64,000 bases of DNA, taken from assembly GCF_041381155.1 (NCBI RefSeq), contig NC_091134.1, positions 14,200,008 to 14,264,007 on the forward strand, given 5' to 3'. The position numbers and the translations under genes were made by a program. Position 1 is the stretch's first letter, and each line of letters begins with the position of its first letter. The DNA comes from Argopecten irradians (lineage: Eukaryota; Mollusca; Bivalvia; Pectinida; Pectinidae). The notes beneath the pieces are model-generated. The model was not told the origin of the DNA, ran no database searches, and worked only from the letters and a program-made list of their open reading frames with translations. Positions 4,019 through 39,267 of this stretch are shown piece after piece.

Positions 4019-4600
4019 GAAACAAAAGGCCCAGTGAGCCTGTATCGCTCACCTGGTTATTGTAATGCCAAGTAATGTTCTGATTACAGGATCATTGATT
4101 TACCTCTAATTTCCCTATTGGAACCCATTCTTTCTGCTCCAGGGGGGTCAGAGCCAAAATTGATACAAACTATGTTCGGTTACATTCCATGCAGAACTCT
4201 ATGACTAGTAGCGATTTAAAGGCTTTATCTTTATTTCCCCTATTGCACCCCACCCCTCCTGCCCCCGGGGGATCAGAGCCAAAATTTATACAAGTTCTGT
4301 TCCCCTTCACCAAAGGATGTTTCTGGCTAAATTTGGTAACATTCCATGAAGAATTAATGACTAGTAGTGATTTAAAGGATTTACCTCTATTTCCCCTATT
4401 GGGCGCCGCCCCTCCTGAACCCGAGGGGTCAGAGCCAAAATATATACAAACTCTGTTCCCCTTCTCCCAAGGATATTTCTTGCCAAATTTGGTCATATTC
4501 CATACAGAACTCAATGACTAGTAACGGTCTAAAAGAAATGTTGACGGACGGACGATGCGCCGCGACATAAGCTCACCAGCCCTTCGGACCAGGTGAGCTA
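4019..4600 (-). mobile_element. hairpin-capped tandem-core element A (pearl/HINE-like), small copy
   Basis: Minus-strand copy of the element at 22305-23620. The right end carries the AGCTCACCTGGTCC-gaa-GGGCTGGTGAGCT hairpin and a short GTCC-type stretch. The left end matches the '..ggtgagcgatacaggc..gggcct' terminus. Between them are about two and a half degenerate core units (with 'ttctgttccccttc' and 'gatttaaaggatttacctctatttcccc'). No protein coded. Confidence 0.75.
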
Positions 4601-7485: not shown

Positions 7486-12789
<5,304 letters not shown>

Positions 12790-17947: not shown

Positions 17948-18006
17948 ATGCCAACTGTTGATCGAGATGAAGAAAATGCTATCCGCATGAAAGTTGGATA
18001 CAATGG
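17948..18006 (+). CDS. aPKC: aPKC first core coding exon (residues 1-20)
   Basis: Begins [19 protein letters not shown], comparable to the short N-termini of other aPKCs. 59 coding nt, ending in phase 2 with donor gtaaca. The exon itself starts at 17909, 17920 or 17935 depending on the acceptor used. Confidence 0.9.
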
Positions 18007-21000
18007 GTAACACTTTACTACACATTCTACTTCAGACCTTATATTTATCTGAATATAAACCTTCATATCCTAACTGTGAAATCAGAAACTAACTCTGAAT
18101 CACCCAGAGCAACATCATCAAAGCTATATTTACTATATAAGGTTAAAAAAAAATCTGTTCATTGGCAAAAAAAATAGGGTTGGTAGGTAGGGATTTTTTT
18201 TAAAGTGTCATTCACTCGAAAGTAATGGCTGGAACCAGAGTCGTATTTTTTTTTCATAGAAAGGTGGGAAAAAAATTAGGGTCGGTCGAGTAACACTTAA
18301 CAGACATTTTTTAGCCTAATGTAAAATGTGTCCAATGCATAATATTGTAATTTCAAAAATTTAGCTAATCTTATGATGTACATGTAATTGTAATTTGAAT
18401 CAAGAAAAATGTTTTGCCTCCATGCTTTATACAAGTTTAATAATCCTTATTCATGCAGTTCAGAAAGTTATGTTTATTTTACAGAGACATTCTCATCACT
18501 AGCGTCAATGTTGAGATCAGCTACCTTGACTTCTGTGCAGAAATCAAGGATATATGCAAGTTTGATGATCAGCAGCCATTTACAGTGAAATGGCTGGATG
18601 AGGAAGGTAAAGAAAAACCAGATGATAATCCACTATTCAGTCTTAATAAGTTCAGTTAAAAAAAAAGATAATTGATAATTGCAAGTACATACCCTATAAA
18701 TCTTATAATATTTATGATGAAGATGACGGAGGATAGATGCTTGCCATTGAAACATCACATACAATTTAAGGAATATCTGATAATATTCTTTGTTTTTATA
18801 TAAACATGAATCTGATCTAGAGCACTAAAATTATTTAAGACTAATGAATCTGGATCCATTTTATGGAATCTCTATGAATTGAAACCCATGAGCTCAAAAA
18901 GATAAATGTTTTATTATAATATTATGGAAAGCCTGCCGACTGAACTAGAGTTGTTTAAAATAACTACACAATGACAGACTAATTTTACTTCCATATTAGT
19001 CACTTGGGATTACAAGCAGCACTCCAAGCTTTTACACCATGACTTTATTCGCATCAATATGTTTTCTGTGTTTTACTAATCCAGGTGATCCGTGTACCAT
19101 TTCCTCCCAGTTGGAGCTAGATGAAGCCATCAGGCTGTATGAAATCAACAAGGACTCTGAGATCACCATTCATGGTCAGTTCTTCTCTTAATGTCAGTTG
19201 TACATGTTATATAATTAAGTAATGTGTTAGATGAATGGTTAAGATGACCTAAAGTAACTGGCAAACTGATTGATTAAAGTCAGGAAGAATGAGTTTCTAC
19301 TTGCCATACTTGTTTGAATATATATTACCTATGTACAAAATGAACCTCTTCAAGAATGAAAGATTTGGACCAAATAAATAGCTATGTTGTTGAACGTTGT
19401 TACCTTAGCTCTTATACTGCGAAGACTTTTTAATTTATATTTTATGGATCACAATTTAACTTCATATTCAGTTAAACCAATTTGAATCACTTGTTTTAGC
19501 GTGATTGACTGTATATGATGTAACCTTGTAATCTCAAGTCTATTGGACTAAGATAAAAAAATTGACAGTAACAAGAATCTGATCAATGTGTTTCGATTAA
19601 TCAGTATGTATATTATATATGTTCACACAGTGTTTCCCAATGTACCAGAGCGACCAGGGATGCCATGTCGCGGGGAGGATCGTAAGTTTTATACATCTAA
19701 TCAGGGACTGGCAAAGGCTTTTTAAAGCCATGTATAACTAGAAATGGTATTTTTTATATCTGTGTGCCTGTCTGTTTTCAATGTCAAATTTGGTAGATTA
19801 ATAATTAATTATAGCAAAGGAGATATTTTAGTAGCCAACAGCTTCATACTTTAAATACAAACAAATTATCTTGCTTATTTCACTGAACTTACGATCCATA
19901 CAGGAAACATGTACCGAAAAGGTGCTCGGCGATGGAGGAAGCTCTACCGAATCAACGGCCATCTTTTCCAGGCAAAGCGCTTCTCCAAAGTATGTTTGAG
20001 CGATTTTCAGTAAACACAGGGATTAGTGATATATAGCAGTTGTCATTTAAACTGCGCTGAACTCCATACTAATTTTGATAGTCAAGTTTCTTCCTCACCA
20101 CTCGAAGTTGAGCTTTGGATTTTTTTCATAATAATTAGCCTGTAAAAGTAGGTCAGATTGTTTATGTATGTGGTATTTGTTACCAAATTTCATGACCTTG
20201 ATCATAGTGGGTCTCTATTAATATTCAAACATGAATATATTTTACTACAACCATTAGTGAAACAAGCAAAATGTTGCAACATACCGGTATGTAAACTATT
20301 ATATACTGGTACTGTGATATAAGAAATTGCATTTTAAAAATGTATAAATGTACACTACATTTATAAATGTAGTACACGTACATAGTGTAAAAAGACATCT
20401 GAATTTACTTAGATTGAACAATTTTCTATTTTTCCCACAGAAAGCATTCTGTTCATTCTGCTCGGACAGGATCTGGGGTCTTGGTCGCCAAGGTTACAAG
20501 TGTATAACATGTAAACTTACTGTCCACAAACGGTGCCACAAGTTCCTCAAGGTCGTTTGTGGGGCTCCAGTCATGGTGAGAACTAAAGAGGATTTCCTAG
20601 GAATGGGTTTCAAGTTAATACAAACCTGAAAGTGTGTGTCCCTTTAAGTCCTTTACCATATTTATCCATAGACCAACTCAATTTGCCTTCTTCTTCTTAT
20701 AGAATATAACTGCCGATCACTAAATTTTTGTAAAAGTTCTGCTTTTGAAAGATCTTGAGAAAGTTCCTTTCTGAGATAAGCGCAAATTTAGTTGGATCTG
20801 TAGGAGAACAAGAGTTTTACAAAAATAGTGTATACTAATTAAAGGTCTATGAGTGATTAATCATTATACATTTGTTGATTGTTATCAGCCTCCGACAGAC
20901 ACTCGGCCAGACCAACCGCCTGCCTACAATTCAATGACGTATCCAGGCAAACATTCCAATGGGGACAACCCTACAGGTAAGCTTCGAGATTTGGTTTTTC

Positions 21001-24000
21001 ATCATTTAATTATAAAAAATAGATGATTTTACAAATATGTTATAGAGTATTATACTCTTGTGGCTATGTATAAATGTAAAGTCTATTGAAGAAGTTGACG
21101 CCAGAATACGCCACAAAGGCTAATTCTTTTACATAACCAAGAAGCAAAATATGGCATAAATGTATTGTTCTACATTTCTTATGAAACATATAACGTAAAA
21201 CATTGACAAATTCCACGACATTGTTAAGTATTTTAATTAATATCGTTGAAATAACAAATCGTTGATCAATGCGACTAAGCAGGTACAATATGGACGCTGT
21301 ACCCATACCCGAGCCAAAGTCACACACGTAAAATAAATAAACTACATAACCACTGAGAAGGGTATAAAATGATTTAAGGCAAGACAATTCACCTGATAAG
21401 GTAAAAACACTACTGTCAAACCGATTTGAGCAGTTCTAGATAAAAATTGCATTACTCGACGAGCAAGGGACAGGGTTCGGCATACAAGAAGTTCGATCAC
21501 ACTGTGTAATGGCGGACAGCGAGCGAGTTTGAACATCTACATACATGTCACAAACATGGGCTTTTCAGGCATATCACAGTAAAACCGACTGATCTAATTT
21601 CCATTAGAACTGGGTTTTTTCAATATATAATGTTCCCTTAGACTGAATTGTCCCTTTAAAGAAATTGGATACGCCACAAACATGTAAGTGAGTGACATAT
21701 CAAATTATTTAAGGAGTTTAATCAGTTTTAATATTTTATAACTATGACCGTAAGATTTTATTCATAACATAATTAATATTAATGAAACTATAGGCAAAAC
21801 TTTCAATTTCATTTCTGTACAAGACAAAGCAAATTATGACTAGTATGTGACATTTCTGAAAATTTACTTCCATGTTGTGACTTTTGTTAGATCCTTTTTC
21901 CATTAAGTTTGTGGAATTTATGCCTAAGATGTTGATAGATTGTAGACATTGATGTATTTTTAAATTGGTTGTGTTATAGACCATGGGACTTCGGTGGAGG
22001 TTGATAAAGAGGTAAGTAAATACAAACATGTCTGGTCCAGACGTTATTTTTTATTCTATTCCTCTTGGTGTCTAGTTTTCATACCACTGGGCAGGGCCTC
22101 TCAGTTCACTTTTGGTGTTAGATTCTTCCTTGCTGTACTTTGTCTCAAACAATATGAGAATTCTGAGAATCTAGTCACCCCTATATATAGATAAAAACGT
22201 TTCTGATTTGTCTTTGAATTTTCAATAACTATATTAAAAAAGACTAAACTAATAATAATTTTTTTTCAATTGTCTGCTTTAATGAAAGAAACCTGGTTTT
22301 TTTTAGCTCACCTGGCCCGAAGGGCCGGTGAGCTTATGTCATGGCGCGGCGTCCGTCGTCCGTCCGTCCGTCCGTCGTCCGTCCCGTCCGTCCGTCCGTC
22401 CGTCCGTCCGTCAACATTTCCTTTAAATCGCTACTAGTCATAGAGTTCTGCATGGATTGTAACCAAATTTGGCCACAAACATCCTTGGGGGAGGGGAAAC
22501 AGAACTTGTATAAATTTTGGCTCTGTCCCCCCCGGGGCAGGAGGGGCGGGGCCAAATAGGGGAAATAGAGGTAAATCCTATAAATCGCTACTTGTCCTAG
22601 AGTTCTGCATGGATTGTAACCAAATTTGGCCACAAACATCCTTGGGGGAAGGGGAACAGAACTTGTATAAATTTTGGCTCTGGTCCCCCGGGGGCAGGAG
22701 GGGCGGGGCCCAATAGGGGAAATAGAGGTAAATCCTTAAAATCGCTACTAGTCATAGAGTTCTACATGAATTGTAACCAAATTTGGCCACAAACATCCTT
22801 GGGGGAAGGGGAACAGAACTTGTGTAAATTTTGACTCTGGTCCCCAGGGGGCAGGAGGGGCGGGGCCCAATAGGGGAAATAGAGGTAAATCCTTTAAATC
22901 ACTACTTGTCATAGAGTTCTGAATGGAATGTAACCAAATTTGGCCACAAACATCCTTTGGGGAAGGGGAACAGAACTTGTATAAATTTTGGCTCTGATCC
23001 CCCGGGGGCAGGAGGGGCGGGGCCCAATAGGGGTAATATAGGTAAATCCTTTAAATCGCTACTTGTCATAGAGTTCTGAATGGAATGTAATCAAATTTGG
23101 CCACAGACATCCTTTGGGGAAGGGAAACAGAACTTGTATAAGTTTTGGCTCTGACCCCCCGGGGGCAGGAGGGGCGGGGCCCAATAGGGGAAATAGAGGT
23201 AAATCCTTTAAATTGCTACTAGTCATAGAGTTCTGCATGGATTGTAACCAAATTTTGCCACAAACATCCTTAGGGGAAGGGGAACAGAACTTGTATAAAT
23301 TTTGACTCTGGCCCCCCGAGGGCAGGACGGGTGGGGCCCAATAGGGGAAATAGAGGTAAATCCTATAAATCACTTCTTGTCCTAGAGTTTTGTTTGGATT
23401 GTGACCAAATTTGGCCATAAACATCCTTGGAAGAAGGGGAACAGACCTTGTATAAATTTTGGCTCTGACCCCCTGGGGGCGGGAGGGGTGGGGCCCAATA
23501 GGGGATTTAGAGGTTAATATTAAAATTACTTCAGAAAAGAAACAATGAACCTGTATTCAGAACATTACTTGGCATTACAAACCAGGTGAGCGATACAGGC
23601 CCTCTGGGCCTCTTGTTTTTTCAATTTTGTAACAAGTATTTTTTATTTTGTCATTTAATATTAAGCTGTTAATTAAATTAATTATTAAACAATTTGGTAA
23701 CAATGGTATTTGAAACAGTGTGATTAATAATGCTAATATTTGATAAAGTAATTTTGCTGCATAGTTTTTAAGCGTAATAGATATAATTAATCTGAGTAAA
23801 ATCATCTGGTCATAGGGCTGCCGCGATACGGCAGAAGCGTACCACGATATATTGCGATACACAACAACTGTATTGTGATATGTATTGCAATATTTTGACC
23901 TTAACATATGTGTTGTCTATTTTGTATATATTCCATAATAAAAACACCCATTACATTATACAAACATACAGTGCTATGTTATGTAGTTTTACATCGATTT

Positions 24001-27000
24001 GAACCATGTTGTTGAGTAACAAAAATGTTCAAATATGTTCTTGTTTTAAAAAAATATGAGTCTGTTTGTGAAAACGCTAGGCTAACTGTTACAGACGATC
24101 GTAACCTAATAATGCAATAACTAAACATGATAGTGTCTGCAAAATATTTACACTTTTGAACCTAAATGATGAACAAATTTACGTACAATTGTCCTGGCAA
24201 AATAAGCTTACGATCGTGATTAAACTTCAAAGGGCTGACCGGCTTGCAGTGTTGTTTTGACACACGTGTAGGAAATCGAAAATGGCGGCGGACGATGAAG
24301 CCTGAAAAAGCTGGCAAAATCCCTGCAGCCATGTATTCACCGGGCCTTAAATGTGTTTAGAGAATTAGATATTCCGGTATTGTTGATTGATGGAGCGAAT
24401 CAGCTTGATAATATTTCAGAAACTAGCCTAATGTAATATTGTTTATATTCAACGTCATGCAAATGTTTGAATCATTTGAACATTATACACGTTAGTTACA
24501 AACATTTGACCGACATCTGAATCGAATGAAAACGAAAGGGATACCCACATGGCTTCATATTATCGGAAAGGAAAACAAATACAACTTGCTGGTTTTGTTT
24601 TAATGACAGGACGTTTTAATTATATCAAATTAATGAAATTATGATACTAAGAAAATATATCGTAAAAAAACCGGTACAGGTAAACTGTATCGCGGTACAA
24701 TATTTTTTTGGTGGTGTATTGCAATATCCCAATATACCGGTGAACCGCGGCAGCCCTATCTGGTCATAGCCTTATTTGCTAAGTAATCTGGTTCAGACAA
24801 TGGTAATGAACAAGTCATGAATGGATGATTTTAATCACATTGAATTAAAATAAGTTTAACTTAATATTTAAACAAAAATAACAATTATGAAAAGATAACT
24901 GCTAGACAATATTTACAAATCTAACACTATAAACGATTTCTTGTTTAAGATTTCACTATCACAGGAGGAGGTGTCTGTTAGTTCACCAGAGGTACAAAAT
25001 CATCTCCCTTTATATACTGTGTTGATTGCCTCCCTTTGTTTGATAAATTGTCTCCCTTTGTTTGATCACTGTATTAAAAAGGCATGTACTATCATCACAG
25101 ATCATTTGTTGTTTAGTTTGTTTGTTATGCATAACCAGAAAGATTAAACCAAGGGATGCATTTAAAAATTACTTTGAAAACACTGCTCTTTTTTCAGTGT
25201 ATTTTGAGAGAAAAATTTCTTGAAATTTAATCTAAGACTAGATTAGTTTAGAGTATGATTTTGATTTTGTGTTGGCTGATTTAAAAAGAAGAAAAAAATG
25301 AAGGAAAAAAATAACATCAATACACCTGTATCCTATAAAACATAATTTTTTCATAAACTATTGGAACTGACAAAGGGATAAAGATATTTTTTTTTTGTGT
25401 GTGGCTAGAGTAGATGTTGTGTGTATTATAAAACCATTACTCTGAAGCCAGCAGTATACCAGGTATGGGGAATGGCAGTAGCTAATATATGTAGTATTAT
25501 TACCTTGGTCTGACTTCAGAAGTATGCATAGAAATATAAAATCTAAAGTCTCATCTGCACCATTGAGTGTAGAAAAAATTATCAAAATCTGAAAATTTGA
25601 TAAATTCAGAAACACATGTTTGATATTCAAGTGAAAAAAAATCTAGTGCAATGATATAAAAAGACCAGTTCAACTTTATGTATAAAACAAAATTTGGTAT
25701 TAAAGGATGAAATATCTGTTGAAAATATATGTTGAAATTGACTTGTGCTGAGATTTTGGAGTTACAAGAAATGTTGATACTTTTGAGAGGAGTTAACTTT
25801 ATGATTCTTTTAGGGGAACTACTTACCTATGGCAATTAGTTTTGCAAAAAGAATCTCTATTTATTTTCATTGCCTGAAGCTTTTATCCTTATTTACCTTC
25901 TCGGCGTTGGCAGTGACAATGTTGATGTTACTGTGATTTGTCACATGTTCTTTAGCCAGTCAAACTCAACCTTCATACATCAAAGTGCTTGCCTGGAATT
26001 GTTTTGCATGTCTTCAGGTTAAATATTTAGGTAATTTTCTGAAAATGTAAAATTTATTTCTGCATCAAATAATCATATTTTAGCTACTTTGCATTGGCTG
26101 TGACCTCGACAATTTTGATATTTCTATGACATATTTGCCTTGAGTTAATCAAGCACAAGCTTCATACACCCTTTTTTATCAAATACTGGGTGTTCAAAGG
26201 TCAAGATTGCTGTTACTGAAAAAAGAACCATTTTTCCATGTAATTACTTAAGTTGTAGGTATCACATTCACTAAGTGAACTTTTGTCAGTGAGCTTTGTA
26301 TTGACTGTCAAAAATCACTGGTTATTAAGTATAAGCTGTTTTGTTATTGACTAGTGTTACGTTTAAGCTTCATATAGCCAACCTATTAAATATTGGTCTT
26401 CTGTGCTAGATTATTGTTTTAAATTATGAATTTTCCATCTGGAGTAATATGTATGTACTTATGTTTGGATCAGAAAAAACGGAGTAAAGATGTCCGAAAA
26501 CATGATGTTAATGTATGTATATGTCTCACGGTGGCCAATATATCGGAACATCACAGAATTATAAACAGACATATAACTACATTAACAATGTATCTCTCTT
26601 TAATTCTCATTTAGTGTTTAAATGTATGCATGTTAACATACCAACAGTGCTAATTGATATAATATGATTTTAATGTTTATCAATTAAATTTCTTTTGGTT
26701 CCCTACTGTTATTTCATATATAAAAGATTATGTAATCGTATATGAATTGGTCTAACATCTCAAGCTCCTATATCAGTATATTCAGATATCAGAATGATAT
26801 TATTACGTTGTATTAATATTATATTTCATCGATTCATGGAAACGAGAACTTAAATATAAAATTATATGTATAAAATGTTTAGGTTACGTTCTGATATTGG
26901 GTTGCACTAGCATAACAGCCTCTGGATTTATCATTAAATTAACAAAAACTAATTATGAAAATAAATGATTTAATTGTTTTAGCTGTGAAGTGATATCATA

Positions 27001-30000
27001 GAACATAATAAAGAATTCAGTAAGAACAGAATGTTTTGGAATGGGTAAAATGATATAATTCATTAAAGGCAATCTAAGACAAGTCTATGTCCCTAATATT
27101 AATTTTGAATTCCGATTTGAAGTGTTCTTCAATGTATACACCATATTTATGATAATTAGCACCCTTGTGCCTAGACAAACCCTTCCCCTGTTCTTAGGGG
27201 TGTTCAATTGGTTCATAAAATGCTTTCCCTGGGTGCTAATTACGGTAAATATGGTAGTACTATGATGTATACCTGTTGTGTAGTAACGTTTTGCTGTTGT
27301 ATTTTTGTTGTACTAACACCTGTTGTCCTTCTCTGTACCTGGTTACCATGGATACTAACAGTCTGACCAGTCAGGGGTACGTACAGTAGACTGGAGATTT
27401 CATTTAATTGTTATTCTTACTAACATTTCTAATGTTACATCTAGTATATATGAAAACAACATTTCAATATTAATAAATCCAATAATTATTTCCAAATTTC
27501 CTAGACTGGCTACTCTATTGATTTTTTTTAATGATGATTTTTCAGATGATTTTAAGTTATCTCCCCCTAAATTAAAAGGTAGAGATGATCTACATGTTGA
27601 TGTCTAATCAACCTTTTGTAATTATACATTTATCTAGATCTCTCTATCTCATAATGGCTAAGATATCAGAATTGTAATGTGGAACAAAAATCAAAATCTT
27701 ATTCCCTAGTAAAATTATGGGGAAAATCTAATATGTAGCTTTCACTTTCTGTCCCTCATCTAATAATGAAGTAATATTTGAGTTAAAATGCAGCTTTTAA
27801 ATTTATGCCTTTTAATTCAAAGAAGAAAGTGTCCAAATGCTGGTATAAATATTCTAACCACTTTATTTTTCAAGGAAATAGGAAAGAAAACAGGTTTAGA
27901 CAAATGAAGGAACATCTTTATTCACTGAACATTTAATTGAGATAATAGGATTACATTTTAATCTGTCTTTACAAGAAATATGTAACATGATAAGGAAGCT
28001 AGATAAAAAAATTGTGATATACAAATTATTTTCTAATTATGATTTATGATACAAAATTGTTGTGTTCTGATATGAAAACATTTCAAAGTATATATGGGGA
28101 AGAAAATTGAAGCTTTAACAAATATATCCCTGATATTTTTATGCTGTTACCATGTGAACACTTTCTGTTGTCATGGTTACAGATGGGATCTGAATCTGAC
28201 GGCAGGACCGTTTCTATGGACGAGTTTAACATGCTACGTGTGATAGGACGGGGTAGTTACGCCAAGGTACTAATGGTAGAACAGAAGCGAACAAAACGTA
28301 TCTATGCCATGAAGGTGATTAAGAAGGAGCTGGTGAATGATGATGAGGTAAGGGTCACAGAGGTCACAGGGGTCATGAGATAAGGGTCACAGGGGTCAGA
28401 AAAGGTTATGGAGGTCACAGGGGTCACACAGCAATGTCATCTTTGTAATTCAGATCTCAATATTTGCGATATTTAGATGTAAAATTGGGAGCTGCTTCAG
28501 TGAATGCATTAAAGTATTTTGACTTATTTGTTTTTACTCTTTCAATATTACTCTTTTGACACTTATACAAGTAAACATTTTAAAATTAGATTTGGAGAGA
28601 AGTTTGATATATTGATAAGAAATGGTGCATCAATAAAAAAAAATATTAATGCTCCATTTGGATAATTTCTTGACAGTTGTCCTTTCATCTCAGGTAAATA
28701 ATTATGTTAAAAACTGAAATTAAATATTGAGAATGCTACTCTGAAATAGTAAATGTGTATATTAATATGAAATTGTTTGTCAATCCCCTGACCTATTCTG
28801 ATCAGCGTATCATACAAGAACTTGTATAAATTCTGAGGACATTAGTTGTTCTTTATGTATTTTTCTGTCATTCTGACCTGTTTTTTTTATCTCTTTTCTG
28901 TGATGAAATGATGTTGTTCCTGTCATTGATAACACACTATTTTACACTTATTATACGCTTTCCTTCAATTGTTTTCAAGACAAACAGAATAATCAAACTT
29001 TTCTCTATTCTTTTGCTGATATGTTAAGAATAAATTGAATGATTTTGATGGTATCAGAAATAATTCTTTACACACAAAATAGTACATGTATATTGAATAC
29101 AGTACTTACCTGTAAAGGAAAGATAAATTGCCTTAAAAGTAATAAGAAAGGAAATTGGCTTTAAGTGAACATAAATCTCTTACAAAGAACAAAAAGCAAG
29201 ACCTGTTTACACTGTTAAAATTATTGTCAAAAAATTATTGTATCGGCTTACTACAAAGAATTTGTGTGAAATTTGATACATATTTATAGTATTCTTCGGC
29301 TATGAATTAATCTTGTCGGACCTGTTGTTATTTCCCTCCTCTGTTTACAGGATATAGACTGGGTCCAGACAGAGAAACATGTCTTCGAGACAGCCACTAA
29401 TTATCCATTCCTTGTAGGACTACATTCCTGTTTCCAGACACCCAGTAGGTTAGTGACACATTTTTTCTGAACTATAAAGAGTTTATGGGTCATATGTCAG
29501 GTTTGTAAATTAATCCCATTTTTTGAAGTCACAAGAACAAACTGTATCTGTTTACCTTAAAGATGCTCCCCCGCCGACAAATGGTGTTTAATCACTATGA
29601 AAAACAGGAGCAGACGATTTAGTATTTTTCTTCAGTTACAAAAGTTACTTACTTAACACCATTACCACCATTGAAAAGTTTGAGCTTCTAATTTTACTTC
29701 AAGTTAAAAATATGAAAAATAATTAATTGCATCCTGGAAAAATTCTGTGACACTATATTCTATATGGGATGAAGTACTGATTGCGCATGCACCAAAGGCA
29801 AAATAAATTATTTTATATTATTTTTTTGTGTTAGTTAGGCATATATATACACGATTAAACACCAATTATTGTTCAAATGATTAACATCATTTATGCTCTG
29901 TCGGCAGTGGAGCATCTTTAACAGTATTGAACATGCAAGATGTTGGTAGCTTCCTTGAATAATGACCTTGACCAACTTCACCTTGGGCCTAAATCTAAAT

Positions 30001-33000
30001 GATTCTAGTTTTGACATTTTAAGATACTGATAAGAAAGGAGAAAATTTAACTGTATTGTTTTTGATAAAAAGAAGGACAAATGGTAAGCCCTAGACAGCA
30101 TTTATGAGGTTGTAGACACAGTTTGATATTTTAGAGTTGTCTCCCCTTTCTTTTTCTAATACTATAGATTGTTGAGTGCTCTATTTGTAGGATTTATCTC
30201 CCTTGTTAGTTTCAAAAACATGTGTATTTCTGTTTGTAGGTTGTTCTTTGTGATAGAGTTTGTAAGTGGGGGAGATTTGATGTTCCACATGCAGAGACAG
30301 AGACGACTGCCAGAGGAACACGCCCGGTTCTATGGAGCTGAGATTTGTTTAGCACTCAACTTCCTTCATGAGAGGGGTCAGTGTTTGTTTCCTCTCTTTA
30401 TTATGTACAAAAAATATTTTGTATTCCAACCTAGTAGTTTGTATATAGATAAGTGGATTATATATCCTAATTCTGATTTTGTTCTATCCGTAGGTATTGT
30501 ATACCGAGATTTAAAGTTAGACAATGTATTACTGGACCAAGAAGGCCATGTCAAACTAACTGACTACGGAATGTGTAAGGTACGGTATATGTAGTGTATG
30601 TATTGTATATTTATATTGTATGGCTATTGAAGCTATCGTTATAAGTGAAGTATATACCAGGGTAGATGTTGCTGTTTTATCGTTTAAACTTGTGACTCCT
30701 TCAGTGTGAATTCTGTCTTTTTGATTTGTAGAATTATCTGACCCGAAGGGTCAGGATGACCTATAGTCATCATGTTTCGTCCGTCGTCGTCCGCCGTGCG
30801 CCGTGCGCCGTGCGCCGTGCGCCGTGCGCCGTGCGCCGTCCGCCGTGCGTTAACTTTTCACATTTTGAACTTCTTCTCAAGTTTGACCAGTGGGATTGAG
30901 CTGAAACTTACCTGAAATGATCCTGAGATGGTCCCGACAAAGTGTTGTTATTTTTCTGGTCGATCCGAAATCCAAGATGGCCGCCACAGCCGCCATCTTG
31001 AAAACACATTTTGAACTTCTTCTCAAGTTCTACCGGTGCGATTTGGCTGAAACTTGCATGAAATGATCCTGACATGGTCCCGACAAAGTGTTGTTATTTT
31101 TCTGGTCGATCCGAAATCCAAGATGGCCGCCACAGCCGCCATCTTGAAAACACATTTTGAACTTCTTCTCAAGTTCTACCGGTGCGATTTGGCTGAAACT
31201 TGCATGAAATGATCCTGACATGGTCCCGACAAAGTGTTGTTATTTTTCGGGTCGATCCGAAATCCAAGATGGCCGCCACAGCCGCCATCTTGAAAACACA
31301 CATTTTAAACTTCTTCTCAAGTTCTACCGGTGCGATTTGGCTGAAACTTGCATGAAATGATCCTGACATGGTCCCGACAAAGTGTTGTTATTTTTCGGGT
31401 CGATCCGAAATCCAAGATGGCCGCCACAGGCACCATCTTGAAAACACATTTTGAACTTCTTCTCAAGTTCTACCGGTGCGATTTGGCTGAAACTTGCATG
31501 AAATGATCCTGACATGGTCCCGACAAAGTGTTGTTATTTTTCGGGTCGATCCGAAATCCAAGATGGCCGCCACAGCCGCCATCTTGAAAAACATTTTTAA
31601 ACTTCTTCTCAAGTTCTACCGGTGCGATTTGGCTGAAACTTGCATGAAATGATCCTGACATGGTCCCGACAAAGTGTTGTTATTATTCGGGTCGATCCGA
31701 AATCCAAGATGGCCGCCACAGGCGCCATCTTGAAAACACATTTTGAACTTTCTCAAGTTCTACCAGTGCGATTTCGCTGAAACTTGCATGAAATGATCCT
31801 GACATGGTCCCGACAAAGTCTTGTTATTTTTCGGGTCGATCCGAAATCCAAGATGGCCGCCACAGCCGCCATCTTGAAAACACATTTTGAACTTCTTCTC
31901 AAGTTCTACCAGTGCGATTTGGCTGAAACTTGCATGAAATGATCCTGACATGGTCCCGACAAAGTGTTGTTATTTTTCGGGTCGATCTGAAATCCAAGAT
32001 GGCCGCCACAGTCTCCATCTTGAAAACACATTTTGAACTTCTTCTCAAGTTCTACCGGTGCAATTTGGCTGAAACTTGCATGAAATGATCCTGACATGGT
32101 CCAGACAAAGTGTTGTTATTTTTCGAGTCAATCCGAAATCCAAGATGGCCGTCACAGCCGCCATCTTGAAAACACATTTTGAACTTCTTCTCAAGTTCTA
32201 CCGGTGCGATTTGGCTGAAACTTGCATGAAATGATCCTGACATGGTCCAGACAAAGTATTGTTACATCTCTGGTTGATCCCAAATCGAAGATGACAACCA
32301 TGACACTATGTATAATTAAGTTCCTATATTTAAAGGCCCTTGGGCCTCTTGTTTGAAATAAAATTTGTTGAAAGAAATTGAAAATGATCCTGACATGATC
32401 CTGACAAAGTGACACCATATATAATTAATTTTACTATTGTCAAGGTAGTCAGATGACCGTTAAGGCCCTTTGGGCCTCTTTTTGATTTGTAGAATTATCT
32501 CCCCTACTAAATGGGTATTAATTATGGCATTATTAGTTTGAAGGCAAAACTTTTTCTCATGTGACAAATATCATGTTATGCTCACAAACAAATGGTGTAA
32601 CAATCAATACCTACCACCAAGGGCAGATAACTCTGTAATATACAAATACAGAATACTTAAGGTCACTCAAGGTCATCTCATGATCACTCAAGTGGTATCC
32701 CAGTCGGATGTTTAGATATCATATCAGTGGTTTTGACAAGCATTCATACATTTGTGTGCCACTGAAATAGCGTAAATAGATCTTCAGATCTCTTCTGTAG
32801 AAGAAACCAATGAATGGCATATAGGCAAAGATGCAGTCAGTGTTTGTGTTTGAATAGTGTTTTAAAGGGACATGAACCTAAATAAACCATGCAAATTTGA
32901 GTAAAATACATATTTAAGACGTGTCAGATACCTTACTAAGTAATATATATCAGTTATTGTGCAAGTGTGTCAAATAAAATAATTATAATGGAAATTCCAT

Positions 33001-36000
33001 CTTTCTGTATTTTGAACCAGCCTGGTCTCGTTTGACTTTTGACTTATCATTCATACGCTAAATGCATATTGTTTTATAACAAATATGGCTTAAACTTCAT
33101 TTGTCAACCATCCTAAATTAGAAAATAATCATAAAATGTGGAAAACTGATATTCCTTGTCATGTCAGCAAGTTTCTTGTTCATCATAACTTTGCTTTCGG
33201 CCAGCTTTCGTTTTGTGTTCTAAAAATAGAATATGACGGTCTATTTTTATCAATTTTGAGGTAGGTATTCCCCACGTTTTCCTGTTGTTTTAGATAACCA
33301 ATCATTGTAATAAAATATTCATTAAACATCTGAAAACCATATCTAAGCATACAGAACAAATTATTTAAGGTTCATGTCCCTTTAACAGATGGACTGGTTA
33401 TCTATAAAAACAGATTTACCATCTTCATTCAGTTGGTGCAAAGTGTAAGCGTTACAGATATTGTGAATTTGATCAGTTTCAAAGATCTACACTGCATGTG
33501 TGAAATCAGGTATTTCTTCCTTACAAAAATCCTGCTGAGGCATGTATGTGAACACTCACTTTTATCGGTCAAGATTTCAACACAGCTCTAGGCAGAACCA
33601 ATCCAATGGCAATGTGATATTTCCACCTGGATCATAAGATGTAACTGTTACTTGTTGACAGGTTTTGAAATCTTGATTTAAATATGTATGAAAAGACTAT
33701 TTTATCACATAATATTCTTGATCTGTTATGATATGGTAGATAAAAAACGTTCTAAGATTGCATGAAATTGTAGAATTCATATATGGTAGACATGTGTCTG
33801 AAAAAAGCTATAAAAAGTCTTTACGATTGTTTTCATCTGTTAGCCATTGTGCTAGACATTAGTATTATCATTTTTGAGTCTCTCATTCATGATCAGGTGG
33901 TTCATTTCCCAGCTACAACATATTAATAAGTCTATTGTGTGTTGTCTACTAAGGTATTGAACATTCAAGCTTATCTTTAAATCTATTATTTAATAAGATA
34001 GACACTAGACACAGCCTATGTATAGGTCTATGGTGTGTTAGCTGTCATCCATCTCTGTGTCTGTGTTACCAGTTTAGGTAGCATCCACCTACAATTAACT
34101 AGTAAGACTGTTGTCCAATGAATAAAAAACGGAATGAGGAAAAAAAAAGAAGGGGAAAAAGTTTCTCCAATAGCATTAATTCTTAGAAAGACTTTGTTCA
34201 TCACTCAATAATCTCACCAAAATTGCTATAAAATCTTAATTATTTACAAGCAAAGAAATATTTGTATAACAGTATCATTTATGATTCTGACGATGAAAAG
34301 CAGATAAAGTAAATAATCCTAATAAAATGGTCTTTAATATTAAAAGCCACAAAATAAGGATTGATAATGATAGGGTCCTGATTTTACTCTTGTTATTGAC
34401 CACCTAGGAGGGCCTGAGGAATGGAGACTTGACCAGTACTTTCTGTGGCACCCCAAATTACATAGCCCCAGAAATCCTCCGCGGTGAAGATTATGGTAGG
34501 TTAATCACCAGTTCTGACTAGACCTGTCAGGTGGTGGTACACAGTAGAATTGGTGTGGACACAGTATTCATGATTTTATCCTCCACTAATTTACTTCTCC
34601 TTTTCAGGGTGTTGGAGTTTTTCAGAAATTATTTATCTAGTTATCTCCCATGTCTAGATTATCTCCCTTTTCTAGATTATCTTAGGCCAAATGACATAAT
34701 AAACCCATGCAATATTGGTTAGAAGCATATTTTTTGCACAATTGTTTAAAATCAGTCTTTTAAGCTCATGATTTAGTTAACTAAAATCACTTTGTATTTT
34801 ATGTGTACATTAATTTGGTTACAGATAATTGTGATAAAGGGAGATAACTGGATTTTTTGTATATATGAAGTGTGTAGGTCAATATGAATCGACAAACCAA
34901 TCAGGCTACTGCAAGCTTAATCCAGGTAAAATTCAGAATGTTTATTTCTAATTCTTATCCGTCGTTCCTTCAAACTTTTACAGGTTGTTTATGTCATGAA
35001 TAAAAACCATTTTGTCCTGACAAAAATTTCAATCGAAGAAACCTAAGAAGCTTGCAGTTGTTTTTTTGTTTGTTTGTTGGTTTAGACCAAGTAACAAATT
35101 GTAACTTTTGTAACCTCGTTGTCTGACACATTGTTTGTAACAGGAGGGGTTGTTGCTAGGAGACCGGACTAACACTTTCTGTGGAACACCAAATTACATC
35201 GCTCCCGAGGTGCTCAGGGGAGAGGATTATGGTATACATCATATCTACATCATCGATATGCATGTACATCAGCAAATATGCATGTATATCATCACTGATA
35301 CATGTGTACATTGTCATAGATATTCGTGTACATGTCAAATTTCAGTGTAGCTGAAATGCATTTATATCAGGATTATGCGTTAACGTGTACATGTCAATGT
35401 TCATTGTCAAATATGTGACTGTGCATTTTGTCACAGATAGGTGTGTACATTGTCACTAAAATGTGTGTACATTGCCACTGATATGCCTGTAAAGTGTCAC
35501 TGAAATACATGCATCATCACTGATATAAGTGTAACAAAAAATGTGTACATGTCATTGAAACTTGTGTACATTTGTCACTGATGTGTGTGTACAATGTCAC
35601 AAATACATGTGTACATGTCTTGGGTTCATATCACAGTTACGCATTCAGGAAAGACAGGTTCCTCGGGTCAAACAAACACAAAAAAGATATTTATTGCACA
35701 AGCTTCAGTTTTACTCACCTTCGTCACATTGTATTTCGGAATATTATATTAGTTCAAAATGTAGAAAAAGATTTATTCAAAATACAATAGTAAATGAATT
35801 TACATACATTTATACATTGTATTAAATACAGTATGGTTAGTGGTGTCAGCATACCAGTGTATTCATACTACATATAAATGATCTTGGAAATCTTCTGATT
35901 TATGCTACCATGTACATTGACCCTTTTCCTATTTAACCATTGATATTGGATGCCACGGTCACTTATACAATTTTGTACCCAGAAATCACTTTGCTTAAGT

Positions 36001-39000
36001 CCCTCTGACTTTCCTACTGTCACATCACCATGTGTTTGACCTGAGGGATTTATGTCTGTGGCTGCACGTACTGGGCTTCATAAGGTCGTATCTCATAAAT
36101 CTAATAAGTTGAAAAATTTTAGCACTTTTACACAACAATTCTGAGCTCTATAGCTAGCATAGGGCTTCAATATCCAATTGGCTCAGATGTTCCATCATTC
36201 TATAACTAGCCCCAAACTGTATCATTGAAGTAGATGTATTTACATGATAAAAAAATCAATAATTGTACAACCATGTAATATTCAGTGTATACAGATTCTT
36301 AATTTCAAGTGAAATCTTGGTATTTCTTCACATATCTTTACCAGTTATCGGGTCAAGTCTATCCAATGAACATATTCAAAAAGGAGAAGATCTATGTAAG
36401 CACTGCCTGCTGTCTAATCCCATTGAGTTTTGTCAAGTCATTGTTTGGTAATGAAACATGTCAAAAACAATTGATGGTGGTGGTAGGGGAGGGGATGACA
36501 CTTTTAGTTCCGGATACTTTTCCTCTATCGCCTTGTCACATCTGCTTGTAGATCCCTTATTAAATGCAGAATTACCTTGCAAATCATGGTCTGCTACCAT
36601 ATACAGTAAAACACAGTTATAACAAACACGCATACACCAAATTTATGGTTAAAACATAATAATTTTCATTCCCCGTCAATGTTCCTATACTATATCTATA
36701 ATATGTGTATAACGAACTATGCTTATAACAAAGTTATTTTTGTATTCCCCAACGGTTTGTTATAACCATGTTTTACTGTATTCTAAAAAGAGTTCTGTCT
36801 GTCTTGTATATGGAATTGGAGCTTATTCTTAAGTAAATAAGGATGTATGCTAAATATGGATACACGGATATAGTAGTTTACTGAGAATGAATTATCAGTA
36901 AGAGAATAAGTTAATAAAGCAATTTCGGTTCTTCGTGTTATACTCATTATCATCCCCAATATTCTAATGTCTGTATATGTATACACTACCATTACTTTAC
37001 AATTTGATATTTAAGTTGATCAGGTCTTAAAATATGTCTGAATTACTTCATATATTGTTAAAGGCTGTGATGTACTTGTCTTGACAATGTATTACTAACA
37101 TTTGAGTTGTACATATATACAAAATGTACCCGAAAATCTGAATGTATGGGAACATATTCCATCCTTGCATACTACAGAGTTATATGTCCTATCAGATGGG
37201 TATTGATCGTGACGTCATGTGTTTGCAAGCGTAACAACGTCATTTCCAGAGATTAAAAAATTTGTGTACCCACAAGTGAGTTAACTCTGTAATATGCAAA
37301 CACAGAATATGATATGTACTATTGTGTATAATTAATATTTCATGTTTAACTCTTATTAAAATGTTTTATAATATTCATTATATATTCATGTATTAGTATT
37401 TATCATATATATTGAATTATGTATTTTATAAATACACATGAATGAATATATTATGTTAATTAAGGTTGGAATTTAGACCATTCAGAAGGAAGTTATCATT
37501 AAGAATATGGTAGCGATAATTGATTAATCAAATACAGTTTAATTAAGCTTCCATGAATATAAATGTAGGGGGTCAATGTAGAAATTTCTGATGATAAAGT
37601 TTTATATATGTAAGTAGGGTTCCATTTTCATGTCTTTAACCCTTAGTCAGTCTTATGAGATATGAGTACCATGATATTGTACATATGCCAGGGTATTGGT
37701 TGTGTACTTACTTTTATGTCTCATTAATTTCACTATAATCTCAAAAAATTAATTCAAAATCAATGGGTGTAAAGTATATTCACATTTTGTAATTACGTTT
37801 TATACAAAATAATTTGGAAAATATTTGAACTCTTTCATGAAATTATGCAAAAGTTTGAATTTTGCGAAAATAAATTTAGTTTGGTTGCCCTATACACTAT
37901 AGACTGGTTTATATATAAAACATTCAGTTTGGATGTCCTGTAGATTTCAGTGTCGACTGGTGGGCCCTCGGAGTACTCATGTTTGAGATGTTAGCCGGAA
38001 GATCACCTTTTGATGTGGTTGGAGCAGCAGACAATCCTGATCAGAATACTGAAGACTACCTCTTCCAAGGTGACTTATCTCCCTTAGATATTTGTTGGAA
38101 GAGTTATATCCCTTGGACTATATATGGGAATCCTTTTTTTTGTATAAGTTGATTTTCAAGTTCTATTTGTTAAAGAAATCCTTAATAAATCTTCTCAAAT
38201 ATCTGCAAATGCTATGGGATATTTTCTTTGACATTGCATAAAAAGCACAATTATTAAAACAAATTAATTTTCAGACTCTCAGTTGTCGGCAACCTAATGC
38301 TAATTATTAAATCATTATTTCAGTTATTTTGGAGAAAACAATAAGGATTCCCAGGTCTCTCTCTGTGAAGGCAGCGTCTATACTCAAAGGATTCCTGAAC
38401 AAGGTACAGTGGTTCAAAGTTGAAGTAGATATTATATTAAAACTTTACTGAGGTTAAATATTCCATCTGATATGGAAGTTATATCAAGCAATAGATATGT
38501 AAATCTGCATTTTTTGTGCATCCTGAGCCTATTTAGTCTTTTGAATTTCTGTATATTTATACTGTATTATACCAGAACTCAGATGACTGTGAAGATAATT
38601 GACCTATGTATTCTTAAGTGTTGTCTGTTAGGTAATGTTGTTTGAATCTCTTAACCTTAATCAATACACCTTGACATTTCTTATTCATAGAACCCTGTGG
38701 AGCGTCTAGGATGTCATCCTCAGACCGGTTTCTCCGACATTCAGTCACATCCATTCTTCCGATCCATCAGCTGGGAGTCTCTGGAACAGAAGCAGATCCC
38801 ACCGCCGTACAAACCCCAGCTTAAGTCTGACCGTGACCTTGAGCACTTTGACCCTGCATTTACTGATGAGCCAGTTCGTCTGACACCTGACGACCCGTAA
38901 GTTAGATTAAGGAAAAATCTGATTCCATATGTAGTTTCCTTCAAAAATATTCGTCTAATAATGTACCTTTTTGAAGATTTCTGTTTTCATCCTTGAATGG

Positions 39001-39267
39001 GTATCAGTCAAGTGGCCATGGTTTTCTTCCAAGTACTTTGGCTTTTTTTTCACCGCCTAAATCTTGCAAGTCCTTAAATGACTATCACTGTTAGTAAGAC
39101 CAAAAAAAAAAGCATTTTGCAATTGATAGCTTATAATTTTCATTTGTAATTCATGTAATTGATTTATTGTCTTTTACAGGAAAGTTATAGACAAGATTGA
39201 CCAGTCCGAGTTCGATGGTTTTGAGTATGTCAACCCACTGCTTATGTCAATGGAGGATTGTGTATAA
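17948..39267 (+). CDS. aPKC: atypical protein kinase C (PKC iota/zeta/aPKC type), multi-exon
   Basis: Serine/threonine kinase of the Par6-Par3 polarity complex. Coding exons: 17948-18006, 18485-18606, 19085-19174, 19631-19681, 19904-19989, 20441-20575, 20889-20976, 21980-22011, candidate microexons 24965-24991, 26474-26512 and 27362-27376, then 28183-28347, 29351-29448, 30240-30376, 30494-30579, one of 34408-34495 or 35144-35231, 37944-38069, 38324-38403, 38691-38896, 39180-39267. All junctions keep frame. Without microexons the protein is 578 residues, with all three 605; human PKC iota is 596. Domains: PB1 about 14-91, pseudosubstrate [12 protein letters not shown] (111-122), a single C1 with the HX12CX2CX13CX2CX4HX2CX7C pattern (127-176), kinase glycine loop IGRGSYAKV (242-250), Lys265, Glu284, YRD Asp360, DYG 378-380, T-loop Thr394, APE 403-405, turn-motif Thr546, and hydrophobic motif FDGFEY with Glu565 in place of Ser/Thr, an aPKC hallmark. 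C-terminus EDCV. Confidence 0.98.
18485..18606 (+). CDS. aPKC: aPKC exon: PB1 domain, first half
   Basis: 122 nt. Encodes [16 protein letters not shown] through [16 protein letters not shown], the first part of the PB1 fold that binds Par6 or p62. Confidence 0.95.
19085..19174 (+). CDS. aPKC: aPKC exon: PB1 acidic OPCA motif
   Basis: 90 nt. Encodes [20 protein letters not shown] and NKDSEITIH. With the preceding WLDEEG this forms the acidic OPCA surface of a type I/II PB1 domain. Confidence 0.95.
19631..19681 (+). CDS. aPKC: aPKC exon: linker to pseudosubstrate
   Basis: 51 nt. Encodes [16 protein letters not shown], matching the family's FPxVPxxPGxxCxGED block. Donor gtaagt. Confidence 0.95.
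19904..19989 (+). CDS. aPKC: aPKC exon: pseudosubstrate and start of C1
   Basis: 86 nt. Carries [12 protein letters not shown] (111-122), with Ala115 in the phospho-acceptor position, followed by His127 of the C1 zinc site and FQAKRFSK. Confidence 0.96.
20441..20575 (+). CDS. aPKC: aPKC exon: C1 zinc-finger domain
   Basis: 135 nt, phase 0 to 0. Supplies Cys140, 143, 157, 160, His165, Cys168 and Cys176, with [11 protein letters not shown] in the middle. The spacing fits the C1 consensus exactly. aPKC C1 domains are atypical and do not bind diacylglycerol. Confidence 0.97.
20889..20976 (+). CDS. aPKC: aPKC exon: variable hinge, Pro-rich part
   Basis: 88 nt. Encodes [20 protein letters not shown] and KHSNGDNPT. 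The sequence is poorly conserved, as expected for the hinge; support comes from the cag acceptor, the gtaagc donor and phase agreement. Confidence 0.85.
21980..22011 (+). CDS. aPKC: aPKC small hinge exon
   Basis: 32 nt encoding [10 protein letters not shown] after a split Asp codon. The acceptor is gttatag and the donor gtaagt. It is phase-compatible with both neighbours and returns the frame to phase 0. Confidence 0.75.
22305..23620 (+). mobile_element. hairpin-capped tandem-core element A (pearl/HINE-like), large copy
   Basis: Opens with the palindrome AGCTCACCTGGCCC-gaa-GGGCCGGTGAGCT, then a (GTCC)n microsatellite (about 22350-22412), then about seven tandem units of roughly 157 bp each containing agttctgcatgg, ggccacaaacatcctt and aataggggaaatagagg. 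It closes with ggtgagcgatac and AGGCCC-tct-GGGCCT followed by cttgttttt. Known bivalve pearl elements share a tandem core plus ACGG-type microsatellite and are related to Helentron-derived HINEs; assignment to them is inference. In an aPKC intron. Confidence 0.8.
23813..24758. mobile_element. non-autonomous hAT-like element with perfect target-site duplication
   Basis: Perfect 13-bp terminal inverted repeats TAGGGCTGCCGCG / CGCGGCAGCCCTA, flanked on both sides by TCTGGTCA (23805-23812 and 24759-24766). 946 bp, no transposase. Subterminal regions carry repeated GCGATA/CAATAT motifs. In an aPKC intron. Confidence 0.88.
24965..24991 (+). CDS. aPKC: candidate aPKC hinge microexon 1 (27 nt)
   Basis: Encodes EEVSVSSPE between a tttcactatcacag acceptor and a gtacaa donor. 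Phase 0 on both sides, so it can be included or skipped without breaking frame. Acidic and Ser-rich, like the preceding VEVDKE. No homology is available to prove use. Confidence 0.55.
26474..26512 (+). CDS. aPKC: candidate aPKC hinge microexon 2 (39 nt, basic)
   Basis: Encodes [13 protein letters not shown] between a ggatcag acceptor and a strong gtatgt donor; phase 0 to 0. Inclusion would place a basic, NLS-like patch just before the kinase domain. The acceptor's pyrimidine tract is weak, which would fit regulated use. Confidence 0.5.
27362..27376 (+). CDS. aPKC: candidate aPKC hinge microexon 3 (15 nt)
   Basis: Encodes SDQSG between an actaacag acceptor and a near-ideal gtacgt donor, phase 0 to 0. 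Very short, so this rests on splice signals and phase only. Confidence 0.4.
28183..28347 (+). CDS. aPKC: aPKC exon: kinase N-lobe, glycine loop and catalytic Lys
   Basis: 165 nt. Starts [20 protein letters not shown], then [14 protein letters not shown] and [15 protein letters not shown]. An ATG is present at the exon start, but the matching acceptor and homology make this an internal exon. Confidence 0.97.
28348..28428 (+). repeat. AGGGGTCAC/AGAGGTCAC tandem repeat directly after a splice donor
   Basis: Immediately downstream of the kinase N-lobe exon donor, the intron has about eight RGGTCA-type half-sites, several spaced by three bases (AGGTCAcagGGGTCA). It looks like a short local expansion. 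Confidence 0.6.
29351..29448 (+). CDS. aPKC: aPKC exon: kinase alpha-C helix
   Basis: 98 nt encoding [20 protein letters not shown] and [12 protein letters not shown]. Glu284 of TEKH is the alpha-C glutamate pairing with Lys265. Confidence 0.97.
29557..29921. mobile_element. MITE with TTAA ends, family 1 copy 2 (uninterrupted)
   Basis: 365 bp, inverted termini TTAAAGATGCTCC.. / ..GGAGCATCTTTAA, in an aPKC intron. It includes the shared interior landmark tgcgcatgcaccaaaggc, which is also in copy 1. Confidence 0.8.
30240..30376 (+). CDS. aPKC: aPKC exon: kinase hinge and alpha-D/E
   Basis: 137 nt encoding [34 protein letters not shown] and LALNFLHER. Donor gtcagt. Confidence 0.97.
30494..30579 (+). 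CDS. aPKC: aPKC exon: catalytic loop and DYG
   Basis: 86 nt encoding [20 protein letters not shown] and LTDYGMCK. Asp360 is the catalytic base; DYG replaces DFG, as in all aPKCs. Confidence 0.98.
30718..30739 (+). repeat. 22-bp direct repeat, left flank of element B
   Basis: Identical base for base to 32479-32500. It also resembles the start of MITE family 2 (attctgtc..ttgtagaattatct). Confidence 0.8.
30740..32478 (+). mobile_element. hairpin-capped tandem-core element B in aPKC intron, about ten 146-bp units
   Basis: Opens with TCTGACCC-gaa-GGGTCAGGATGACCT and a (CGTGCGC)n stretch (30781-30850), then about ten tandem units of about 146 bp with aagatggccgccacagccgc and tctcaagttctaccggtgc. 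It closes twice with gggcctctt ends (about 32354 and 32478). Each unit is open on the minus strand for about 63 codons, but 146 is not divisible by three, so this is repeat structure and not a gene. A 22-base direct repeat flanks it. Confidence 0.82.
32479..32500 (+). repeat. 22-bp direct repeat, right flank of element B
   Basis: Identical to 30718-30739. It continues into the rest of a MITE family 2 copy (to about 32654). Confidence 0.8.
32479..32654. mobile_element. MITE family 2 copy, interrupted by element B
   Basis: Left terminus fragment before element B (about 30711-30739) and body after it: ctactaaatgggtattaatt .. gtaacaatcaatacctacc .. gataactctgtaatatacaaa. Confidence 0.6.
32862..33385. 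mobile_element. MITE with TTAA ends, family 3
   Basis: Terminal inverted repeats TTAAAGGGACATGAACCT / AGGTTCATGTCCCTTTAA, perfect over 18 bp, with TTAA at both ends. 524 bp, no transposase. In an aPKC intron. Confidence 0.85.
34408..34495 (+). CDS. aPKC: aPKC activation-loop exon, copy 1 (mutually exclusive candidate)
   Basis: 88 nt between a cctag acceptor and a gtaggt donor. Encodes [20 protein letters not shown] then PEILRGEDY, with T-loop Thr394 and APE. This copy is closer to vertebrate and fly aPKC at the TSTF and EIL positions. Same length and phase as the exon at 35144-35231. Confidence 0.95.
35144..35231 (+). CDS. aPKC: aPKC activation-loop exon, copy 2 (mutually exclusive candidate)
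   Basis: 88 nt between a gtaacag acceptor and a gtatac donor. Encodes [20 protein letters not shown] then PEVLRGEDY. It differs from copy 1 at residues 387, 388, 391, 393 and 406 and at silent sites in roughly half the conserved codons, so the duplication is old and the protein has been under selection. Splicing both copies together would shift the frame. Confidence 0.93.
35236..35640 (+). repeat. degenerate TGTACATTGTCACTGATA satellite after activation-loop exon 2
   Basis: More than ten imperfect repeats of a roughly 20-30 base unit (tgtgtacattgtcactgata) begin within a few bases of the donor of exon 35144-35231. It gives spurious short ORFs on both strands. Confidence 0.7.
36602..36780. 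mobile_element. TA-flanked MITE, family 4
   Basis: TACAGTAAAACACAGTTATA (36602) faces TATAACCATGTTTTACTGTA (ending 36780). The 26-bp arms pair with few mismatches, with TA at both ends as in mariner-type elements. 179 bp. Confidence 0.8.
37154..37310. mobile_element. MITE family 2 copy in aPKC intron
   Basis: atattccatccttgcatact and cagagtta face taactctgtaatatgcaaac; internal ggtattgatcgtgacgtcat. About 157 bp. Confidence 0.7.
37944..38069 (+). CDS. aPKC: aPKC exon: kinase C-lobe (FSVDWWALG)
   Basis: 126 nt encoding [20 protein letters not shown], then [20 protein letters not shown]. The split codon with either upstream exon gives Asp413, where human and fly aPKC have Gly. Confidence 0.96.
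38324..38403 (+). CDS. aPKC: aPKC exon: kinase C-lobe
   Basis: 80 nt encoding [20 protein letters not shown] and KGFLNK; donor gtacag. Confidence 0.96.
38691..38896 (+). CDS. aPKC: aPKC exon: end of kinase and turn motif
   Basis: 206 nt. Encodes [35 protein letters not shown] and the AGC tail to VRLTPDD, with turn-motif Thr546. Donor gtaagt. Confidence 0.97.
38995..39100 (+). repeat. SINE tail remnant
   Basis: Contains caagtccttaaatgactatc and ctgttagtaaga, a degenerate copy of the SINE 3' region seen at 4980-5045. Confidence 0.4.
39180..39267 (+). CDS. aPKC: aPKC last coding exon: hydrophobic motif and stop
   Basis: 88 nt with TAA at 39265-39267. Encodes [20 protein letters not shown] then LMSMEDCV. 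Glu565 mimics the phosphorylated hydrophobic-motif residue of other PKCs. Confidence 0.97.

Follow-up and report, generated by a model that had tools for sequence, protein, structure and literature searches.

The window, that is, the whole 64,000-nt stretch of Argopecten irradians DNA that was analysed (C1:14200008-14264007 of an 845.8-Mb genome), contains a complete gene for an aPKC (Table 1), which was modelled exon by exon using tblastn with the Pecten maximus protein P0049. The mRNA has 18 exons whichever of two loop exons is used, all internal junctions are AG/GT, and the 592-residue frame stays open with either exon. PB1, C1_1, Pkinase and Pkinase_C domains all scored above the Pfam cut-offs in one protein (a 518-residue partial model with exon B), giving the combination of PB1, C1, kinase and Pkinase_C by which an aPKC of the PRKCI/PRKCZ type is recognised, and the aPKC-type loop in both copies as well as the C-terminus fit the same assignment. 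A loop signature containing TDYGMCK is characteristic of this type. Excerpts of PMC7104321 additionally give a Glu at the hydrophobic-motif phosphosite as an aPKC trait. A partial query carrying exon A, without the first exon and the three hinge exons, scored best with P0049 of P. maximus (84% identity) and with P0029 (89%). The hinge exons themselves come from the P. maximus-guided model; in Aplysia, the aPKC hinge is alternatively spliced, as described in the accessible part of PMC6539039.

Table 1. Positions of the aPKC gene, its loop exons and repeats in the window
Feature	Position	Strand	Remarks
Complete aPKC (PRKCI/PRKCZ-like) gene	17948..39267	+	592 aa
Three small hinge exons	20889-20976, 21980-22011, 24950-24991	+	C1-kinase interval
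Constant exon before the pair	30494..30579	+	ends ...TDYGMCK, phase 0
Exon A, canonical aPKC activation loop	34408..34495	+	88 nt, AG before, GT after
A-B intron	34496..35143	+	648 nt
Exon B, alternative activation loop	35144..35231	+	88 nt, AG before, GT after
Constant exon after the pair	37944..38069	+	entered in phase 1, starts DFSVDWW...
Dispersed repeat, about 75 bp	32574-32655, 37165-37309, 8719-8769, 12202-12391, 58084-58166		both orientations
Tandem array in the intron before the pair	30859-32293		146-bp unit, 9.8 copies at 95%
7-bp CGTGCGC array	30788-30849		just before the 146-bp array
Open frames with similar peptides	4170-4521, 22334-22650, 23059-23424		probably dispersed-repeat copies rather than genes

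The activation loop is encoded twice, and the initial annotation had placed the two exons exactly: they are equal in length, lie 648 bases apart with GT/AG borders, and share their phases (0 in, 1 out). The loop of exon A has the same residues as P. maximus isoform X1 (P0049) and matches human PKC iota at 28 of 30 residues (human residues 402-431, the exon plus one residue). Exon B replaces 5 of 29 residues of A, and the changes listed earlier (R/L, N/L, L/R, S/N and I/V) were confirmed on translation; their numbering was corrected from 387, 388, 391, 393 and 406 to 401, 402, 405, 407 and 420 using the full 592-residue model, in which the T-loop Thr is residue 408 rather than 394. At the DNA level the exons agree at 64 of 88 bases, silent differences are present in 12 of the 24 codons for conserved residues (about half, as had been noted), and the 100-nt flanks match at 27 and 22 of 100 positions, which is chance level. 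The dN/dS comparison proposed as a check gave a ratio of roughly 0.07 (dN 0.16, dS 2.15 with pS 0.71, saturated; Nei-Gojobori with Jukes-Cantor), which upheld the view that both copies are old and selected. A and B found each other at E = 1.7e-14 when the window was searched with tblastn, and no third loop copy was found there (next best E = 1.3). They are neighbouring, homologous, equal in phase and mutually replaceable, the features by which tandem-duplicate exons are recognised.

Searching the whole genome with the B-loop protein returned at least 32 matches, of which the top two (100% and 83%) were the exons B and A themselves. Thirty of the 32 matches became loci, and all 30, on plus and minus strands, were read: the third-best match (62%) was a PKN-type loop, and there was no aPKC loop among the other 28 loci. 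The closest two other matches are separated by about 64 kb and have opposite orientation, and no second close pair of T-loop exons was found among these at least 32 matches. By this loop search, in which the number of matches is a lower bound, a single aPKC-type locus is seen in the genome, carrying both activation loops, where mammals have two aPKC genes. Two loops in this genome carry Arg three residues before the T-loop Thr, which I take to be of PKN type and of PKA type GRTWTLCGTPEYLAPE. At a further locus (L020, minus strand, G000:C3:67796698-67796766), a PKC-like loop ends in TFCGTPDYIAPEV and is followed by GSWTPDYIAP, as if PDYIAP were repeated.

Splicing of the pair

Including both exons leads to a stop at codon 436 and including neither leads to a stop at codon 414, so that the frame break expected from the initial annotation holds in both cases. 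Premature stops before the last junction are expected to cause nonsense-mediated decay, and since both stops lie upstream of that junction, decay of either mRNA is expected. The loop exon of the aPKC gene is duplicated in tandem, with splicing probably taking one copy per mRNA, and exclusivity would rest mainly on the frameshift and the ensuing decay of double-inclusion and skipped products.

Splice sites of the two exons were scored. Donor B (ATG/GTATAC) reached 3.71, lower than A (6.34) and lower than all 16 other donors (5.25-11.66), although the matrix was built from these 16 donors of the same gene and therefore favours them, with donor A also being low in the list. The acceptor tract of B contains 53% pyrimidines, which ties with the lowest of the 16 others, as against 71% for A. 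The lower-scoring donor and the poorer tract of B suggest that A is the default exon and B the regulated one; with its weaker sites, B would need a tissue- or stage-specific activator.

Known devices that keep exons apart are a U12/U2 mismatch, a very short intron, and competing RNA pairing, and none of these was found here: the donors are not U12-like, the A-B intron (intron 2) has 648 nt, and its ungapped pairing with introns 1 and 3 or with itself was at or slightly above the level of shuffled sequences (scores, with the maximum of 20 block shuffles each in brackets: introns 1-2, 34 (35); 2-3, 41 (39); 2-2, 42 (38)). Pairing of introns 1 and 3 scored 80 (42), but was rejected as an exclusion device, being the dispersed repeat that has more copies in the window. 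An inverted pair of this repeat flanks the A/B exons. As such devices are optional, the assignment of A and B to mutually exclusive exons stands.

Loop forms in other species

In two other molluscs, paired isoforms are distinguished by this exon only, which agrees with the mutually exclusive use that the initial annotation considered probable. Of 596 residues, only 405, 409, 411, and 424 distinguish X1 from X2 of Mytilus californianus (P0122/P0009), and X1 and X2 of Gigantopelta aegis (P0086/P0011) differ at 5 of 587, all within the loop exon; the members of each pair come from contigs of equal length. These X entries are computed models, of a kind that is usually supported by RNA-seq. Four further proteins are uninterrupted over 580-596 residues: Mytilus-like P0121 (A form, 2416-nt contig) and P0008 (B form, 2593 nt), which show two differences outside the loop, P0043 (B form, 2100-nt contig), and P0029 (A form, contig of at most 2003 nt). 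Contigs this short with uninterrupted proteins most likely come from spliced RNA, the alternative being an intronless copy. Evidence for mature mRNAs with either copy thus consists of isoform models and transcript-sized contigs, both of other molluscs. The Pinctada imbricata model P0002 contains A, an out-of-frame stretch, and B in one protein, and is probably a prediction error given that stretch. Read in the wrong frame, the middle stretch fits a further loop copy (26 of 29 residues, compared with at most 16 in 2000 shuffles), and the copy number of the loop exon may therefore vary.

To survey loops more widely, the best 120 of 5559, 4881, and 5482 matches from three protein searches were combined into 211 distinct proteins, in which a pattern scan found 201 loops. 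The protein set was clustered at 90% identity, which hides isoforms, so that a missing B form means nothing for a given species. The fish protein P0001, and P0003, P0004, P0005, P0006, P0013, P0054, and P0088, with two loops each, look like duplicated or mis-joined models and were not counted as exon pairs. Of the 201 loops, 12 combine Asn just before the Thr with Val after APE, 14 have only the Asn, none has only the Val, and 175 have neither. The Fisher P of 1.5e-12 for this pairing is not a fair probability, since the proteins share ancestry and two of the searches favoured N-type loops. Ten of the 12 loops have species names, and all ten belong to molluscs, namely the bivalves Pinctada imbricata, Mytilus californianus, M. 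coruscus, Saccostrea echinata, and Mercenaria mercenaria, and the gastropods Babylonia areolata, Gigantopelta aegis, Littorina saxatilis, Aplysia californica, whose isoform X1 (P0015) has the B loop, and Pomacea canaliculata; the other two are P0008 and P0043.

The 14 loops with Asn only, which were left out of the B count, comprise two from Octopus, one from Argonauta, three cephalopod-like ones, two chiton isoforms, one each from a horseshoe crab, a nemertean, and an ant, and P0018, P0041, and P0129. Six cephalopod or cephalopod-like loops (P0165, P0184, and P0185 from Argonauta and Octopus; P0153, P0161, and P0186) read ETNT with EILRGEPYD or EILRGESYD, and have the Asn of B but an acidic residue at -3. 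P0018, for which a species origin is not given, combines K at -3 with N at -1 and has Leu after APE, so this residue pair is not proven to be limited to molluscs. Leu occupies -3 in the B-like Mercenaria loop, and a basic charge is thus not a strict hallmark of B. The initial annotation was right that copy 2 has Arg at -3 and Asn in place of Ser, but the argument drawn from the basic residue at -3 is less strong than it seems: 12 of 174 aPKC-like loops, including those of Bemisia and Brachionus, pair Ser at -1 with K or R at -3, and T, K, S, R, L, Q, A, M or E are all found at position 409 in the 174.

Age of the pair and predicted function

A and B loops were compared in five genera: the window gene, Mytilus, Gigantopelta, Pinctada, and Saccostrea (A from S. 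cucullata P0019, B from S. echinata P0012). Three differences are fixed (human PKC-iota numbering): T, S or L in A against K or R in B at 409, S, C or G against N at 411, and I against V at 424. The A and B proteins might be interchangeable all the same, with the pair serving the control of expression, either by tissue-specific splicing or by unproductive splicing that lowers aPKC. The PDK1-type core is unchanged in A and B, position 409 varies among the 174 loops as described above, and double inclusion and skipping both end in early stops, all of which would suit this explanation. However, B holds its N (411) and its V (424) across the five genera while A drifts between S, C, and G at 411, and since this retention of copy-specific residues argues against interchangeable copies, the explanation is considered rather unlikely.

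Mean differences per 29 residues were 5.2 between A and B within a genus, 4.6 among A loops, 2.7 among B loops, and 5.85 between A and B of different genera, and the five B loops grouped together in a neighbour-joining tree (29 residues, no support values). With B loops closer to each other than to A of the same genus, and with the fixed residues, the best reading is one duplication before the bivalve-gastropod split, for which the 29-residue tree is suggestive. That several mollusc lineages duplicated the exon separately and arrived at the same residues by convergence is very unlikely in comparison: tandem exon duplication does recur independently in animal genes (PMC9741552), and Pinctada seemingly has a third loop copy, but such convergence would have to produce the same three differences in all five genera, as well as the closeness and grouping of the B loops. 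Exon B could also be a decaying, rarely used copy, as its weaker donor and poorer pyrimidine tract might indicate; this is highly improbable given that its frame is open, its sites are intact, dN/dS is about 0.07 (at saturated dS), and B isoforms occur in other molluscs. An assembly artefact or haplotype duplication is extremely unlikely, since dS is saturated, the introns are unrelated, and the same pair appears as isoforms in other species.

Taken together, tandem-duplicated, mutually exclusive activation-loop exons that are old and under purifying selection are the best reading of these sequences, and I put the probability of an A/B splice switch of old age at roughly 0.87. The comparison with other molluscs, which had been suggested as a means of dating the duplication, recovered the same A/B loops in bivalves and gastropods. 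Because the same pair is present in mussels, oysters, and snails, swapping of the aPKC loop by splicing probably goes back to an early stage of molluscan evolution; dating from before the bivalve-gastropod split, the pair would be over 500 million years old.

Copy A retains the canonical animal aPKC loop, while copy B is derived: the T-loop Thr is preceded by Asn, APE is followed by Val, and the residue at -3 is usually basic. The swap may tune the contact of the phosphorylated loop with basic substrates and with the inhibitors Par3 and Lgl. In published structures with human PKC iota, K+4 of Par3 contacts pT412 and a substrate R+2 bridges pT412 and G398 (excerpts of PMC4998004, a paper in which T409, S411, R405, and I424 are not mentioned), and R655 of Llgl2 contacts pT412 (excerpts of PMC11996676). 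As the K or R at 409 and the Asn at 411 lie close to pT412 in sequence, B may weaken the binding of basic partners. The R/K-x-x-T motif in B, basophilic as in PKA and PKN, could also allow priming by other kinases, an idea that is weakened by autophosphorylation motifs often being unlike substrate motifs (excerpts of PMC10359097). Ordinary loops with K or R at -3 and the Leu of the B-like Mercenaria loop count against both ideas. That the A/B swap tunes aPKC function is a possibility I would put somewhat short of even, and any functional difference may be modest, as K or R at 409 is also found in ordinary aPKCs. A more elaborate proposal is unlikely: a switch older than the bivalve-gastropod split would rewire aPKC priming, with A an ordinary PDK1 site and B (K/R-T-N-T) also a basophilic site for PKA, aPKC itself or related kinases, so that priming and sensitivity to Par3 and Lgl would be altered, in Aplysia perhaps those of PKM.

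Comparison with known systems

Tandem-duplicated, mutually exclusive exons are of a known kind, of which the aPKC activation-loop pair appears to be a new instance: no description of it was found in the open-access literature searched, and the accessible parts of PMC13282866, PMC3517905, and PMC7104321 do not mention aPKC loop variants. aPKC is a cell-polarity kinase of animals and is studied in Aplysia as a memory-related kinase. Should the two loops confer different priming or different control by Par3 and Lgl, the pair would amount to a natural T-loop swap experiment in an AGC kinase, and as Aplysia X1 carries the B loop, studies of PKC Apl III/PKM could address which of the two loops is present in its clones and used in neurons.

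The nearest kinase case found is that of exons 7a/7b of JNK1 and JNK2 (Mapk8/Mapk9; excerpts of PMC5026472), which likewise form a pair of kinase-domain exons used one per mRNA, and whose swap alters substrate interaction and activity (PMC5026472 and PMC8746764, in part). These are MAP kinases (studied in mouse) and their differences are placed in the substrate binding site rather than across the phosphosite of the activation loop, whereas the aPKC exon swaps the T-loop itself. Exons 7a/7b of FYN are also tandem duplicated exons of a kinase gene, with differently regulated isoforms (excerpts of PMC9741552 and PMC5026472), but FYN is a tyrosine kinase and the exon encodes the linker between SH2 and kinase domains together with the N-terminal kinase region that includes the ATP site. 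PKN and PKA loops resemble B in having Arg three residues before the T-loop Thr, yet are encoded by separate genes, while the B protein is otherwise an aPKC. Alternative splicing of mollusc aPKCs is described in the available text of PMC6539039 for Aplysia PKC Apl III (hinge inserts with a calpain site) and for Helix aPKC (delta-C1 and X1 isoforms); as far as that text goes, the catalytic loop is not involved.
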